This document shows positions 15,876 to 20,534 of a DNA stretch of 43,916 nucleotides, piece by piece. The stretch is from Kofleriaceae bacterium (lineage in GTDB: Bacteria > Myxococcota_A > Polyangia > Haliangiales > Haliangiaceae): NCBI GenBank assembly GCA_025357755.1, contig JANXOP010000044.1, positions 1-43,916 on the forward strand, in the 5' to 3' direction. The stretch's first letter is position 1, and the number at the start of each line of letters is the position of its first letter. A program made the position numbers and the translations under genes. The notes beneath the pieces were generated by a model. That model searched no databases, was not told the DNA's origin, and saw only the letters and a list, made by a program, of their open reading frames with translations.

Positions 15876-16558
15876 CGCAGGTCCGCGCCGGCGAACGCGC
15901 GGTCGTGCTCGGGCGCCTCGCCGATCCGGATCAGCGCCGACGCGAGGATATCGGGTGTGGTCGACGCGTACTTCTGCTGGAGCGACTTCGAGAACAAGCC
16001 GGCGACCGCGAGGAGCCCGTCCCCGACCACCGCGCCGACGTGTTCGCCGAGCCGGCTCTCGTCGCGCTCGCCCGTGATGATCGCGGGCTGCGCCATCACC
16101 CACGGGAGGCCCGAGCCACGCACCGCATCCTCGGCTTTCCCGCGCGCCCGCATGTACGCGCCCCGTGCGGTCGCACTCGCGCCGATTCCGGAGAGGTAGA
16201 CCAGGCGCGGCTTGTGCTGCGATCGCTGCGCCGCTTCGACCGCGATCTTGGTCAGGCCGTAGTCGACCTTCTCGTAGATGTCGCCGTCCACCGCATCGGC
16301 CTTCGCCTTGCCGCGCGTGGTGCCGATCAAGATGTAGAGCTGGGTCGCGGCGTGGCGATCGATCGCGGTCGCGAGGGCCGCAGGATCCCACGTGGTGGTA
16401 TCGATGATAGCGCCGAGCGCTTCGAGCTTCTGCTTCCACTCGGCGAGGCTCTTCGAATCTGGACGGATATGCGCGACCACCGGCGTGGCGCGGACGGCGA
16501 GCTGCCGCACCACTTCGCGCCCGACGAACCCGGTCGCACCGAGAACAAAGGCGGTCAT
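15872..16558 (-). CDS. NAD(P)-binding Rossmann-fold protein (NmrA/HTATIP2-like)
   Basis: A 228-residue atypical short-chain dehydrogenase-like protein. It opens MTAFVLGATGFVGREVVRQL, the GxxGxxG dinucleotide loop. VVAHIRPDS follows beta-2 as in NmrA/HTATIP2-like proteins. VYLSGIGAS and GKAEDAVRGSGLPWVMAQPAIITGER fit the later core, where the usual Tyr-x-x-x-Lys is replaced by the YMRARGKAE segment. Catalysis is uncertain; many relatives act as redox sensors. The ATG overlaps the stop of the upstream ferredoxin reductase gene (ATGA), so the two are probably translated together. Confidence 0.87.
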   Translation of the reverse strand: MTAFVLGATGFVGREVVRQLAVRATPVVAHIRPDSKSLAEWKQKLEALGAIIDTTTWDPAALATAIDRHAATQLYILIGTTRGKAKADAVDGDIYEKVDYGLTKIAVEAAQRSQHKPRLVYLSGIGASATARGAYMRARGKAEDAVRGSGLPWVMAQPAIITGERDESRLGEHVGAVVGDGLLAVAGLFSKSLQQKYASTTPDILASALIRIGEAPEHDRAFAGADLR

Positions 16559-17499
16559 AGCTTCGCGAGCGCCGCTTGCATGCGCGCCTTGAGGGGTTCG
16601 ACGACGGCGGAATCCTTGATGTCGATCACGGGCTCGGTGTCGTACTGCTCGTAGAACACGGAGTCCTTGGCATCGGCCGGCACGCCGAGCGCTTCGCGGA
16701 TGCGCTTGAAATCGGGAATGAAGCCTCGGTCGATCAATGGCACCACGGTGCCGGTGATCGTGCCGGTGAGGCCGCAGATGTAGACCACGACGTTTTTCGG
16801 CGTGAAGCCTCCAGGCGGCAGGCCGCAGCGCTGCTCGAGATCCGCGAGGCGAGCACCGTCGAAGAACGCCTCGACGCGACCCGTGTCACCGGTCCAGCCG
16901 GCGGCCTCTTTCGGTCGGCTGACCGTGCCCCAGTACTTGAGCTTGTTGTGGGCGATCATGTGCGAGAGCTCGTCGCGGTAGCCGAGGTCGGCGGGATACG
17001 ACGCGCCGTGCAACAGCACGTACTTCGAGAGATCCGCATCGGGATTGCGACGCAGCTCGCTGCGCACCATGCTCACGAACGGCGCCGAACCGGTACCAGC
17101 CGCGACCAGCACCTTGAGGCGCGGATCCTCGACCCCGATCGTGTCCTTGACCGTGAAGACGCCCGCCGCGACCGGGCGCATGTAGATCCGGTCGCCGGGC
17201 TGGATCTTCCACAGCAGGTGCGTCAGCGGATTCTCGGACTCCGGCTTGGCAACGAAGCGAACGTAGAACTCGACCGGCCCGTCATCTTCGGGCGCCGAGG
17301 CGATCGACATCGAGCGGCGAACCGAGCCGAGCTCCGGCTTGGCCTGGTTGTTCGCACCGAGCACGCAGTACTGACCGGGCACGAACCACGGCAACTCCGA
17401 GGGCATCTGATCTGGCTTGATCCGGAAGATCGTCAGCGCATCCGTGACATCAACGCGCTCGACGAGCGTGGCGTTGTACTCCAGAGCCTTGGGTGCCAT
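16555..17499 (-). CDS. ferredoxin--NADP reductase family flavoprotein
   Basis: A 314-residue FAD/NADP oxidoreductase. The FAD domain has VPGQYCVLG and RRSMSIASAPED (the R-x-x-S FAD motif). The NADP domain has VAAGTGSAPFVSMVRSEL, LLHGASYPADLGYRDEL and VYICGLTG; the canonical Cys-Gly is kept. Ferredoxin-NADP reductases move electrons between NADPH and ferredoxin or flavodoxin. The ATG at 17499 gives a normal family N-terminus; the longer open frame upstream is Arg-rich noise. TAGCGT (17507-17512, minus) sits 7 bases before it. ATGA overlap with the next gene suggests a two-gene operon. Confidence 0.9.
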   Translation of the reverse strand: MAPKALEYNATLVERVDVTDALTIFRIKPDQMPSELPWFVPGQYCVLGANNQAKPELGSVRRSMSIASAPEDDGPVEFYVRFVAKPESENPLTHLLWKIQPGDRIYMRPVAAGVFTVKDTIGVEDPRLKVLVAAGTGSAPFVSMVRSELRRNPDADLSKYVLLHGASYPADLGYRDELSHMIAHNKLKYWGTVSRPKEAAGWTGDTGRVEAFFDGARLADLEQRCGLPPGGFTPKNVVVYICGLTGTITGTVVPLIDRGFIPDFKRIREALGVPADAKDSVFYEQYDTEPVIDIKDSAVVEPLKARMQAALAKL

Positions 17500-17521: not shown

Positions 17522-17929
17522 TCACGACGAGCGGGATGTACGGGCCGCTCGGAGCGCGGACCATGCCGCATCGCGAGCGATTTCGAGATGCCGCATCGCG
17601 ACAACGACGTCTTCATCGCGCTTCGCCCAGGTCGCAGCGGTCGCGACCTCGAGCTGCATGATCGCAGCGTCTGCCGCCGTGACCGCATGCGCGAACAGCT
17701 CGATGCGGGTGCCGAGCGCTTCGCGCGTCGATCGATCGAGCTCGAGCTGCTCGGAGAACGTTGCGATCATGTCGGGCTGGCTCGCGAGCATCGAGCGTTC
17801 GGTGTGGAGGCCGAGCATGCGCACCGCCCGCCGGTCCGCGAACGAGACGTCCACCAAGGGGTCGGTGCTGACGCGATGCGAGTCGCAAGCGGAGGCGATC
17901 ACGAGGGCGAGAGCGAGGAGATGCTTCAT
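17522..17929 (-). CDS. small lipoprotein, third gene of the C39 peptidase cluster
   Basis: A 135-residue protein. The ATG at 17929 gives MKHLLALALVIASAC, a lipoprotein signal with Cys15 lipidated; the longer frame upstream lies inside the peptidase gene. The mature part is almost wholly alpha-helical with heptad-like spacing (ATFSEQLELDRSTREALGTRIELFAHAVTAADAAIMQLE), so a helical bundle or coiled coil is likely. No family recognised. The start overlaps the C39 peptidase stop (ATGA), so the two are translationally coupled and probably act together at the envelope. Confidence 0.75.
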   Translation of the reverse strand: MKHLLALALVIASACDSHRVSTDPLVDVSFADRRAVRMLGLHTERSMLASQPDMIATFSEQLELDRSTREALGTRIELFAHAVTAADAAIMQLEVATAATWAKRDEDVVVAMRHLEIARDAAWSALRAARTSRSS

Positions 17930-18489
17930 GGGGTAGCCTCGGCCGTGACGACGAGCGCGGCGTGGCTGGCCGCATTCCACTCGGCCTCGAGCACCTTGCT
18001 CGGCCGCTTCATCCAATGTCCGGTCGCCGGATCGATCGTGATCACCGTGCCGTCCGCCACGTGCATCGCGATCGCGACCTCGTAGTGGGCCTGGTTGCGT
18101 TGCATGTCGTACGGCAGCATCAACCCGAGCACGACCGGTCGACCGGCGGTGAGCTCGCGCTGCAGATCGTGCGGCGTCGCCGCCAGCGCGTAGGCCTCGA
18201 GGCCGTGAGCGCGCGCGTAGTCACGCAAGACCGAGAGCTTCACGCCCTTGTCGCCGGGCGGCATCGCCTGCGCGAGCTCGCTGACACTCCATCTCTTACC
18301 CCACGCGCCTGCGACCATCGCGAGCGCAGCGAGGCCGCAATCGGTCTCCTTCGCTTGCACCACCACCGGCGTGGCCGCCGCATGCACCCACGTCGCGTCG
18401 AGAGCGATCGGTGCGACGGGTTTCGCGCCGCCGGTGTACGCCAGCTGGCAGCCTGTCGCGAACAACAGGGCGATCGCGAGCTTGATCAC
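17926..18489 (-). CDS. C39-like cysteine peptidase, lipoprotein
   Basis: A 187-residue papain-like peptidase of the C39 (C39_2) type. The lipoprotein signal MIKLAIALLFATGC puts Cys14 at the membrane. The catalytic triad is visible: Cys51 in KETDCGLAAL, His135 in QAHYEVAI and Asp153 in ITIDPATGHWM. It has no ABC-transporter or membrane domain, unlike bacteriocin exporters, and lacks the TPR tail of PA2778-type relatives. It should act outside the cytoplasm. The upstream gene, 17 bases away, encodes a small exported peptide with two Gly-Gly pairs, a plausible substrate because C39 enzymes classically cut after Gly-Gly. The downstream lipoprotein is coupled through ATGA. Confidence 0.88.
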   Translation of the reverse strand: MIKLAIALLFATGCQLAYTGGAKPVAPIALDATWVHAAATPVVVQAKETDCGLAALAMVAGAWGKRWSVSELAQAMPPGDKGVKLSVLRDYARAHGLEAYALAATPHDLQRELTAGRPVVLGLMLPYDMQRNQAHYEVAIAMHVADGTVITIDPATGHWMKRPSKVLEAEWNAASHAALVVTAEATP

Positions 18490-18506
18490 GACGGGCGTCC
18501 TGTCGC

Positions 18507-18773
18507 TTACAGCAGAATGAGGATGACCAGCAGGATCACGATCAGGGCACCACCGGAGATGCCGATCACGATCGTGCTACCACCCTGGTAGTTGCCGACA
18601 TGCGAGGCGTCCTTCACCTCGCGCTGAGCGTAGGTCGCACTCTCCGCCTGTGGGGCGGCGACAGGTTTGGCCGTCACCTCGGCCGTTCGATCGGTCTGGG
18701 GGGCTGCCATCGCGGCCGGGGCGCCGAGAGTGAGAGCAGCAGCGAGGGCAAAGGCAGTGGGACGAAGCGACAT
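18507..18773 (-). CDS. small exported peptide with C-terminal membrane segment
   Basis: An 88-residue protein from ATG 18773, chosen because AGGAGGA sits 7 bases upstream, one of the strongest ribosome sites here. A Sec signal (MSLRPTAFALAAALTLGAPA, cut near residue 23) is followed by a Thr/Ala/Pro-rich linker and a polar stretch (TYAQREVKDASHVGNYQ). Gly64-Gly65 then lead into a hydrophobic C-terminus (STIVIGISGGALIVILLVILILL, residues 66-88) with a second Gly-Gly at 74-75 and no basic tail. It could be a membrane-anchored protein or a precursor cleaved by the adjacent C39 peptidase. The PA2778/PA2779 pair of Pseudomonas has the same logic, but I do not claim homology. Confidence 0.78.
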   Translation of the reverse strand: MSLRPTAFALAAALTLGAPAAMAAPQTDRTAEVTAKPVAAPQAESATYAQREVKDASHVGNYQGGSTIVIGISGGALIVILLVILILL

Positions 18774-18778
18774 GGGAC

Positions 18779-18790
18779 AATTCCTCCTAG
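18779..18790 (-). promoter_or_regulatory. strong Shine-Dalgarno site for the small exported peptide
   Basis: On the minus strand AGGAGGAA ends 7 bases before ATG 18773. It fixes the start and implies high translation. It stands out because many genes in this window have no Shine-Dalgarno sequence at all. Confidence 0.7.
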
Positions 18791-18878: not shown

Positions 18879-20534
18879 TCAGCGCGGCTTCGAGACGATT
18901 AGAGCCCTGAATTCGTGAGGGACAAGGCCCATCAAGCGGTCCTCGATGCGATCGAAACGCAAGTCACCGATCGTTGCTAGATCGAGCTTGTTCGCCACGG
19001 CGTGCTCGAATAGCTCGCGCGTGTAGCCGATCTTCACCAGTTCGACGCCAGCATCCTTGGCCAGTGAACGCAACGCGCGGAACTGGCTACGGGTTGTGGC
19101 GAGGCCGCGCTGATCGCGGTCGAAGTCGAGCAGGTCGATCACGAACTCGATGCTGCCGGTGAGCCCGCAACCGCGTGCGACACGCAACAGATGGCCGAAG
19201 TGGGTCGAGAGCTCCGGATGATCGAGATGCGACGACAGGCGCGGCCACGCATTGGTATCGCCGAACTCGGTGATGACCGCCGTGCCGCCGGGCGCGAGCC
19301 ACGCCGCGATCCGCGCGGTGAGGTCGATCGCCCCGGTCTGGAGATAGAGTGGTTCGGGCGCATCGTCGAGGGCGAGTGCGTGCTCCGCGGCGAGGGGCGA
19401 GATGGCGCGCACGAGCTCGAGATCCGCGTTGCCCGTACCATCGACCGCGAGGCCCAGATCGATCCGCGAGAGTGCGCGCGCCGGGAGATCGCCGACCATC
19501 TCGTTACACAGGACGAGGTCGAACAAGGCCTCCGGTACCGTGGCCGTGAGCGCATCCCCCACGATCCAGGTGGCCTTGTCCCCGATCCGTTTCTTTTGCG
19601 CCGCGGCGAGTGTCGGCGAGAGCTCGAGGATCGTGTACTCGACGGTACGGTTGCCCGCGGCGAGCCGCGCGATCACATCGTGCGCGACGTAGCCGAGCCC
19701 GGCGCCGATCTCGAGCACGCGCACCCGACCCTCGGGCACCAGGTCGCGCGTGACGAGCACGTCGGCGAGCGCCTGACCGTACGTGCGTTGCGCGATCGCC
19801 GGATGCGGCACGCGCAGCAAGTGAGACAACGTGGTCTCCTGGTGATCGAACTGCTCGTCCGCTTCGTCGATGCCGGTGCGGTGGTACTCGGTGAGCGACA
19901 CCGCGGGCGGTACGCTCGTGCCGGGCTGCCACGGCGTGTACGGCATCGTCGAGGTCAGATGCGGCGGCGCCATCGCTGGCCGCTTCGCGTATGCCGACCA
20001 CGGCATCAGCGAGAGCTTGAGCGCCTGAACATCGGAGTGCGTGAGCCGGCGAGCGAGGGCCGCGAGCTTTTTCGGATCGTGCTTGAGTCGGAGCTCGGCG
20101 AGGCGCTTCTCGCCATCCATCGCATCCCACATCAAGGTCTCTTCGGGATCGAGCATCACCTCGGTCACCGGGCGCTCGCCCCAGGCGGTGTAGAGCGTCA
20201 GGCGATCGTCGTGGCGACGCCAGATGTTCCACTTGCCCTTCATCGGCACGAAGGCCCACACGCTCTCGAGCTCGTTCTCGTCGGGCTCGAGCAACACGGC
20301 ATGGCCGACGAGCACGTCGAGAAACTGCGCGGGATCGGCACCTTCGAACCGGTTCGCGAACTGCGCGAGCACGGCCTGGGTGTCGGCCTCGTCCGCGAAG
20401 GTTTCGATGAGGTCCGCGATGTCGGGACTCATCTCCATCAGGTACCCGTAGAGATCGTGGAACAGGTAGACCGCGCCCATGTGGGCGAACCACGAGATGT
20501 AACGAGAGCGAATCAGACGAGCCGGCAAGGCCAT
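18879..20534 (-). CDS. SAM-dependent methyltransferase (MidA-like) with two PqqD-like N-terminal modules
   Basis: A 551-residue protein from ATG 20534, supported by AGGA 6 bases upstream. The C-terminal half is a class I methyltransferase: LEIGAGLGYVAHDV (about 275-288), TILELSPTLAAAQKKR (about 303), the acidic-adenine region WIVGDAL and NEMVGDLPA. This order resembles MidA/NDUFAF7 (PF02636), which methylate protein arginine, but SAM specificity beyond that is unknown. The N-terminal 190 residues look like two successive winged-helix modules of the PqqD/RiPP-recognition type: LFHDLYGYLMEMSPDIADLIE... and LYTAWGERPVTEVMLDPEETLMWDAMDG. That reading rests on pattern only. It is the first gene of the minus-strand cluster leading to the small peptide and C39 peptidase. 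Confidence 0.8.
   Translation of the reverse strand: MALPARLIRSRYISWFAHMGAVYLFHDLYGYLMEMSPDIADLIETFADEADTQAVLAQFANRFEGADPAQFLDVLVGHAVLLEPDENELESVWAFVPMKGKWNIWRRHDDRLTLYTAWGERPVTEVMLDPEETLMWDAMDGEKRLAELRLKHDPKKLAALARRLTHSDVQALKLSLMPWSAYAKRPAMAPPHLTSTMPYTPWQPGTSVPPAVSLTEYHRTGIDEADEQFDHQETTLSHLLRVPHPAIAQRTYGQALADVLVTRDLVPEGRVRVLEIGAGLGYVAHDVIARLAAGNRTVEYTILELSPTLAAAQKKRIGDKATWIVGDALTATVPEALFDLVLCNEMVGDLPARALSRIDLGLAVDGTGNADLELVRAISPLAAEHALALDDAPEPLYLQTGAIDLTARIAAWLAPGGTAVITEFGDTNAWPRLSSHLDHPELSTHFGHLLRVARGCGLTGSIEFVIDLLDFDRDQRGLATTRSQFRALRSLAKDAGVELVKIGYTRELFEHAVANKLDLATIGDLRFDRIEDRLMGLVPHEFRALIVSKPR

Follow-up and report, generated by a model that had tools for sequence, protein, structure and literature searches.

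A conserved gene pair of Myxococcota encodes a Gly-Gly peptide and a C39 lipoprotein, a candidate protease-substrate unit of the cell envelope

A small exported peptide and a C39 peptidase lipoprotein, encoded side by side in the genome of a Kofleriaceae bacterium, constitute a two-gene unit that is conserved in Myxococcota. The features of the two proteins suggest that they are probably a dedicated protease-substrate pair acting in the cell envelope, in which the peptide would be cut after Gly65, whichever of the two pieces is the product. The unit represents a variant on the known theme of periplasmic C39 peptidases, with an unusually clear candidate substrate and a cleavage predicted from sequence. 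Neither a description of this peptide-C39 pair nor an account of the cut was found among the open-licence PMC papers listed.

Gene order and co-occurrence of the pair

The window analyzed is a stretch of 43,916 nucleotides corresponding to one contig (C399) of an assembly of 8.6 Mb in 450 contigs; the genomes of its relatives are also fragmented assemblies. On the minus strand, a methyltransferase-like gene is followed by the genes for the peptide, the C39 lipoprotein and a small lipoprotein, and then by a ferredoxin-reductase-like gene. For the three middle genes, the coordinates, the lengths, the Gly64-Gly65 pair and the catalytic residues listed in the original prediction were all correct. 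The features are as follows:

18879-20468, minus strand: methyltransferase-like gene, upstream flank of the peptide gene
18783..18788, minus strand: AGGAGG ribosome-binding site of the peptide gene, read from the sequence
18507..18773, minus strand: peptide gene, 88 amino acids, ATG at 18773, stop ending at 18507
18705..18773, minus strand: predicted signal peptide, residues 1 to 23, with an A-M-A site, read from the sequence and the alignment
18579..18584, minus strand: codons of Gly64-Gly65, invariant in 26 of 26 aligned peptides, with predicted cleavage after Gly65
18510..18578, minus strand: hydrophobic C-terminal segment, residues 66 to 88, a predicted single membrane helix from the sequence
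17926..18489, minus strand: C39 peptidase lipoprotein, 187 amino acids, GTG at 18489, stop ending at 17926
18448..18450, minus strand: codon of lipobox Cys14, invariant in 27 of 27
18337..18339, minus strand: codon of catalytic Cys51, invariant in 27 of 27
18085..18087, minus strand: codon of catalytic His135, invariant in 27 of 27
18031..18033, minus strand: codon of catalytic Asp153, invariant in 27 of 27
17522..17929, minus strand: small helical lipoprotein, 135 amino acids, with a lipobox; its ATG at 17929 overlaps the C39 stop (ATGA)
16555-17499, minus strand: ferredoxin-reductase-like gene, downstream flank

When the C39 protein was used to search 144 related genomes, 49 of them gave some match at E <= 0.001, and 27 of these 49 contain a nearly full-length match (E 1e-19 or better). 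Most of the weaker matches belong to open frames between 400 and 1300 residues long, the size expected for peptidase-ABC transporters. The peptide profile matched 32 of the 144 genomes at E <= 0.01, 28 of them strongly (E < 1e-9), and the four weak matches (G031, G095, G051 and G001; that of G031, with an E of 3.9e-5, has an internal stop) were left out of the counts. Both partners are present in 27 genomes, the peptide only in one, the full-length C39 lipoprotein only in none, and neither in 116. This corresponds to a Fisher p of 2e-28, in which kinship among the genomes is ignored and co-occurrence is partly favored by design, because the profile was built from peptides adjoining C39 genes. 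More distant peptides located elsewhere would be missed by such a profile, and a limited number of candidates was scored per genome. The single genome with the peptide in which no C39 lipoprotein was found, G013, is 59% complete. Widespread occurrence of the peptide without the peptidase, which the original prediction had named as evidence against it, was looked for and not seen, as 27 of the 28 genomes with a strong peptide match also carry the C39 lipoprotein.

The two genes are also physically adjacent, the peptide gene lying directly upstream of 29 of the 30 full-length C39 genes. The exception, in G003, is a C39 gene without an adjoining peptide, the peptide being located on another contig. 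Counted from the peptide, there are 37 strong places, and a C39 gene adjoins 31 of them, incomplete in two cases (G027:C571, at a contig end, and G111:C388). The latter place (L071) retains approximately 82 C-terminal C39 residues in frame beside an intact peptide, and a full pair is found elsewhere in the same genome. The six peptides with no C39 match in the fetched stretch all keep the Gly pair, and five of the six genomes with lone peptide places carry a C39 gene elsewhere. Loci L066 and L088 are syntenic, one with the peptide and C39 genes and the other with the peptide and no C39 gene; the genome of the latter has a full pair elsewhere.

In another sample from the phylum, comprising 282 genomes that partly overlap the first set of 144, the peptide and C39 profiles both match the same three genomes, namely, the window's, G535 and G351; absences in these searches are soft because 17 and 11 candidates were scored per genome. 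G535 and G351 belong to other families, with G351 outside the class, and in both the two genes adjoin and the Gly pair is kept. The genome of L103 also carries a peptide-C39 pair. The peptide profile had no match in 150 genomes of another phylum, an empty answer that carries no weight.

The surroundings of the pair were compared by tblastn of nine window genes against 19 loci. The surrounding gene row is kept, whole or in part, at L075-L082, eight loci from the same genus as the window. At the remaining eleven (L083-L093, including two from that genus), only the C39 gene was recognized, together with kinase matches in two, and the peptide profile places a peptide beside the C39 gene at each of them. 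The original prediction grouped the small lipoprotein with the pair, but a conserved trio was not supported. Inspection by eye revealed a counterpart behind the C39 gene at only four of the eight other syntenic loci (present at L075, L077, L081 and L082; absent at L076, L078, L079 and L080), and tblastn retrieved it at 1 of the 19 loci (L082), so that the third gene is not counted in the core of the unit. Scanned minus its first residue, this protein has no match better than E 0.2 in Pfam, NCBIfam and PHROGs. The third gene is translationally coupled yet optional. Apparent two-component kinases or regulators recur less than 5 kb from the peptide at L063, L065, L068, L085, L087, L090 and L092. 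Such proteins are abundant in these genomes; the recurrence may be background and for this reason was given no weight.

Conserved features of the peptide and the enzyme

The peptide is composed of a Sec-type signal, an Ala/Pro-rich linker, a recognition segment with the pattern YAxRE...[FY]xGG and a hydrophobic C-terminal stretch, which in the window peptide consists of 23 uncharged residues after Gly64-Gly65. Its counterparts were collected from 27 places with a full-length C39 gene, one per genome. Small upstream frames were first picked by their hydrophobic tail alone, with Gly-Gly not required, which gave a peptide at 26 of the 27 loci. The same tail-only filter admitted further hydrophobic-ended frames at 5 of the 27 (L007, L014, L015, L016 and L024), which were set aside by position. 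The list used for alignment was picked again with the pattern [FYW]xGG and comprises the same 26 loci.

In the alignment of these 26 peptides, including that of the window, Gly64 and Gly65 are the only invariant columns, bearing out the earlier expectation that the Gly pair would be the most conserved part. Ala49 and Glu52 are nearly invariant, and the linker that joins the signal to the recognition segment shows no sequence conservation. Seven peptides from the profile search extend the set to 33, in which position −4 relative to Gly-Gly is Phe or Tyr in all 33 and position −7 is occupied by Ala, Val, Ile or Leu in 31. Tyr is found at −17 in 28 of the 33 and Glu at −13 in 29, and the hydrophobic tail after the Gly pair spans 21 to 26 residues, being 23 or 24 residues long in 24 peptides. 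The register of the larger set was fixed by a pattern that includes Gly-Gly, and the count for the Gly pair is for this reason taken from the 26-peptide alignment. The consensus of double-glycine leaders has hydrophobic residues at −4 and −7. The original statement that the peptide fits this consensus in nothing beyond the Gly pair is only partly right, as these two positions are kept as well.

The codons of the Gly pair vary among the peptides (GGC, GGT, GGG and GGA), and third codon positions are the most divergent in seven of seven compared pairs of peptide genes. Together with the invariance of the Gly pair, this shows that the peptide gene is a conserved protein gene. The window peptide has no match better than E 0.044 in Pfam, NCBIfam and PHROGs. 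Two families matched by some of the 26 peptides, MGC-24 of the sialomucins (4 peptides, best E 0.00028) and the acid-shock protein Asr (2 peptides, best E 0.0015), were put down to composition. A divergent peptide at L070 (G027:C571) has a charged insert that separates the Gly pair from the helix.

The C39 protein scores 56.8 bits against Pfam PF03412, above the cut-off of 22, and the Pfam scan of its 187 amino acids found no other domain and, in particular, no transporter domain. In the alignment of 27 C39 proteins, Cys14 of the lipobox, Gln45, Cys51, His135 and Asp153 are invariant. The N-terminal hydrophobic stretch ends in Cys14, as in lipoproteins, with protein starts chosen by script. 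An AlphaFold2 model of the protein has a mean pLDDT of 91.4, and the first 11 matches of this model in a Foldseek search of the PDB are to PCAT1, ComA and a double-glycine protease with its leader peptide (6mpz). These are followed by pseudomurein endoisopeptidase and, lower, by phytochelatin synthase and staphopains. The C39 lipoprotein thus looks catalytically active and membrane anchored. The original prediction also placed both enzyme and peptide outside the cytoplasm, and the invariant Cys after the hydrophobic N terminus of the former and the Sec-like N terminus of the latter are consistent with such an envelope location. The closest C39 genes in named records are labeled Deltaproteobacteria, Kofleriaceae or Myxococcales. 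A search of plasmids with the C39 protein retrieved 189 records, and among the 20 matches listed, 18 are annotated as peptidase ABC transporters, one as a colicin V synthesis protein, and one has no annotation.

Relation to known C39 peptidases and motif-helix systems

Peptidase-containing ABC transporters have a cytoplasmic C39 domain fused to the transporter and an N-terminal leader without a signal peptide. The present enzyme shares with PCAT1 and ComA the C39 fold, the catalytic residues and a Gly-Gly motif with hydrophobic −4 and −7 positions. It differs from them in being a lipoprotein with a putative Sec-exported substrate and no fused ABC transporter.

A likeness in cellular location is found in FapD of the Pseudomonas Fap amyloid system, described in the available passages of PMC5557850 as a periplasmic C39 peptidase with a Sec signal and no ABC exporter. 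Secretion of the amyloid depends on the active-site Cys of FapD, as seen with the C38A variant (PMC5557850, same passages). The original prediction presented a periplasmic C39 peptidase that works without an ABC transporter as a departure from the norm; FapD is a published precedent for this arrangement (PMC5557850, in the part available). FapD differs from the present enzyme, by description rather than by sequence comparison, in that its partners are amyloid subunits and the FapF pore, according to the same part of the source. At the locus in the window, to which the comparison with fap neighbors such as FapC and FapF was confined, the flanking genes are methyltransferase-like and ferredoxin-reductase-like. 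The target and recognition sequence of periplasmic C39 peptidases are not settled in the available parts of PMC5557850 and PMC6173800.

The layout of the peptide also resembles that of GlyGly-CTERM/rhombosortase and MYXO-CTERM/myxosortase systems, in which, according to excerpts of PMC3237569 and PMC11980579, a short motif and a C-terminal membrane helix are served by a dedicated protease. As in the present pair, a GlyGly-CTERM target gene adjoins the enzyme gene when it is the only target (PMC3237569, excerpt). In contrast, these excerpts describe rhombosortases and myxosortases as intramembrane proteases, each genome encoding several or dozens of targets that end in a basic tail (PMC3237569, PMC11980579), whereas the present pair combines a C39 lipoprotein with small peptides only, mostly lacking a basic tail. 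The basic cluster of GlyGly-CTERM is not found here, as a single terminal Arg is present in 3 of 24 tails and absent from that of the window peptide. A role of the tail as a general sorting tag was considered and rejected, since in 56 genomes the tail profile retrieved one or two peptides per matched genome and two weak matches.

A second peptide-C39 arrangement occurs in the PA2778/PA2779 pair of Pseudomonadota. C39_PA2778_fam (NF033920) is the NCBIfam profile closest to the C39 protein, which scores 35.3 bits and thus remains below the cut-off of 150. None of the 144 relatives exceeds this cut-off, and all 27 C39 members match the profile at E <= 0.001, making it the most matched family. PA2778 and the window-type enzyme are homologous, with an hhalign probability of 99.6 percent. 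Homology of the peptide to PA2779 was not detected, the hhalign probability being 3 percent. The family scan was likewise negative: the window peptide has no match to PA2779_fam (NF033919, cut-off 40) at E <= 10, and 2 of the 26 peptides match it weakly (best E 0.23).

Sampling of another phylum, that of G144 (a genome with a record labeled Geminicoccaceae), revealed PA2779-family peptides in 25 of 150 genomes, at 27 places above the cut-off (L160-L186). At all 27, a PA2778-type C39 reading frame directly follows the peptide gene, with only its C-terminal part in frame at L164 and its N-terminal end cut by the script at L175 and L177. Like the present peptide, PA2779 is small and Sec exported, has a Gly motif ahead of a C-terminal helix and is adjoined by a C39-like frame, and the lipobox Cys of PA2778 is invariant among the 15 of 27 frames that were aligned. 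PA2779 differs in its longer region before the motif, in having one invariant motif Gly rather than two and in the conserved terminus that follows its helix. PA2778 exceeds the C39 domain in length and, when the profile of the same 15 is aligned, shows His, Arg or Asn near the position of Asp153, with a one-residue gap beside it. The literature passages available make only passing mention of PA2778 and PA2779, and no functional account was found in them; one such passage names a PA2779-family gene among promoters from a screen of highly expressed genes of P. stutzeri.

Predicted processing and alternative readings

In the proposed mechanism, the peptide would be exported by Sec, its signal peptide removed, and the C-terminal helix would keep it in the inner membrane with approximately 42 residues in the periplasm. 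The C39 lipoprotein, presumably anchored in a membrane through lipidation of Cys14, would recognize the stretch from YAxRE to [FY]xGG and thus the N-terminal side, because the conserved residues precede the Gly pair and show a leader-like −4/−7 spacing. The predicted cut after Gly65 would take place at the membrane surface and separate the membrane helix of 23 residues from the Ala/Pro-rich soluble portion. As some peptides lack an enzyme gene of their own, a single enzyme may serve several peptides per cell. If the enzyme were anchored in the outer membrane, a substrate in the inner one might be out of its reach.

The membrane helix is slightly more likely to be the product and the remainder a leader, since the recognition residues precede the Gly pair and the linker is not conserved. 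Should the cut occur, there is nevertheless a substantial, somewhat less than even, chance that the same cut serves to release a soluble periplasmic piece of approximately 42 residues ending in Gly-Gly, with the helix as a mere anchor. The layout of a motif followed by a helix is like that of C-terminal sorting signals (PMC3237569, in the excerpt available), and the tightly kept tail length of 21 to 26 residues in 33 peptides is anchor-like; outside the recognition segment, however, this piece is not conserved, which would be odd for an active product.

We consider it unlikely that no cut is made at all and that the peptide is a membrane partner, chaperone client or inhibitor whose Gly-Gly is bound by the C39 lipoprotein without turnover. 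Some C39-like domains are indeed non-catalytic chaperones, as stated in the available parts of PMC5557850 and PMC6173800, but the catalytic Cys, His and Asp and the preceding Gln are invariant in all 27 proteins aligned here. The Gly residues ahead of the membrane helix could instead be kept for packing.

More doubtful still is a sortase-like transpeptidation, in which a thioester would form with Gly65 and the peptide be moved onto an amine acceptor. The position of the motif directly ahead of a C-terminal helix would suit such a reaction, and GlyGly-CTERM targets similarly adjoin their enzyme when single and lie apart otherwise (PMC3237569, excerpt). Phytochelatin synthase Alr0975, for which acyl-enzyme structures exist, occupies several Foldseek ranks between 18 and 39; it is, however, a fold match only and stands below 11 hydrolytic C39 chains. 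Against transpeptidation also count the 21 of 24 aligned tails without a terminal basic residue (the other three have one Arg) and the restriction of tail-profile matches in 56 genomes to the same small peptides and two weak matches. Finally, it is very improbable that the two genes are chance neighbors in a conserved gene row, with Gly-Gly a structural feature of a membrane helix. The wholly or partly syntenic row at the eight genus loci (L075-L082) would favor this reading, but at the eleven others (L083-L093) the row is gone, apart from kinase matches in two, and the C39 and peptide genes still lie side by side, as they also do in families f7, f27 and f43.

With cleavage after Gly65 as the preferred reading, the value of the pair lies in offering a tiny and defined candidate substrate that has a single invariant Gly-Gly and whose gene adjoins that of the enzyme. 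These properties make the cleavage rule of periplasmic C39 peptidases directly testable. The pair also hints at a possible role of PA2778/PA2779. Very tentatively, and with more doubt than confidence, both may belong to so far unrecognized envelope processing units of Gram-negative bacteria, in which a C39 lipoprotein would cut or transpeptidate a Gly-Gly peptide on the periplasmic side of the inner membrane. Such units would have arisen with two or more peptide types unrelated to each other, the PA2779-like one of Pseudomonadota and the YAxRE-[FY]xGG one of Myxococcota, and would give rise to a membrane mini-peptide or to a released peptide attached to an acceptor.
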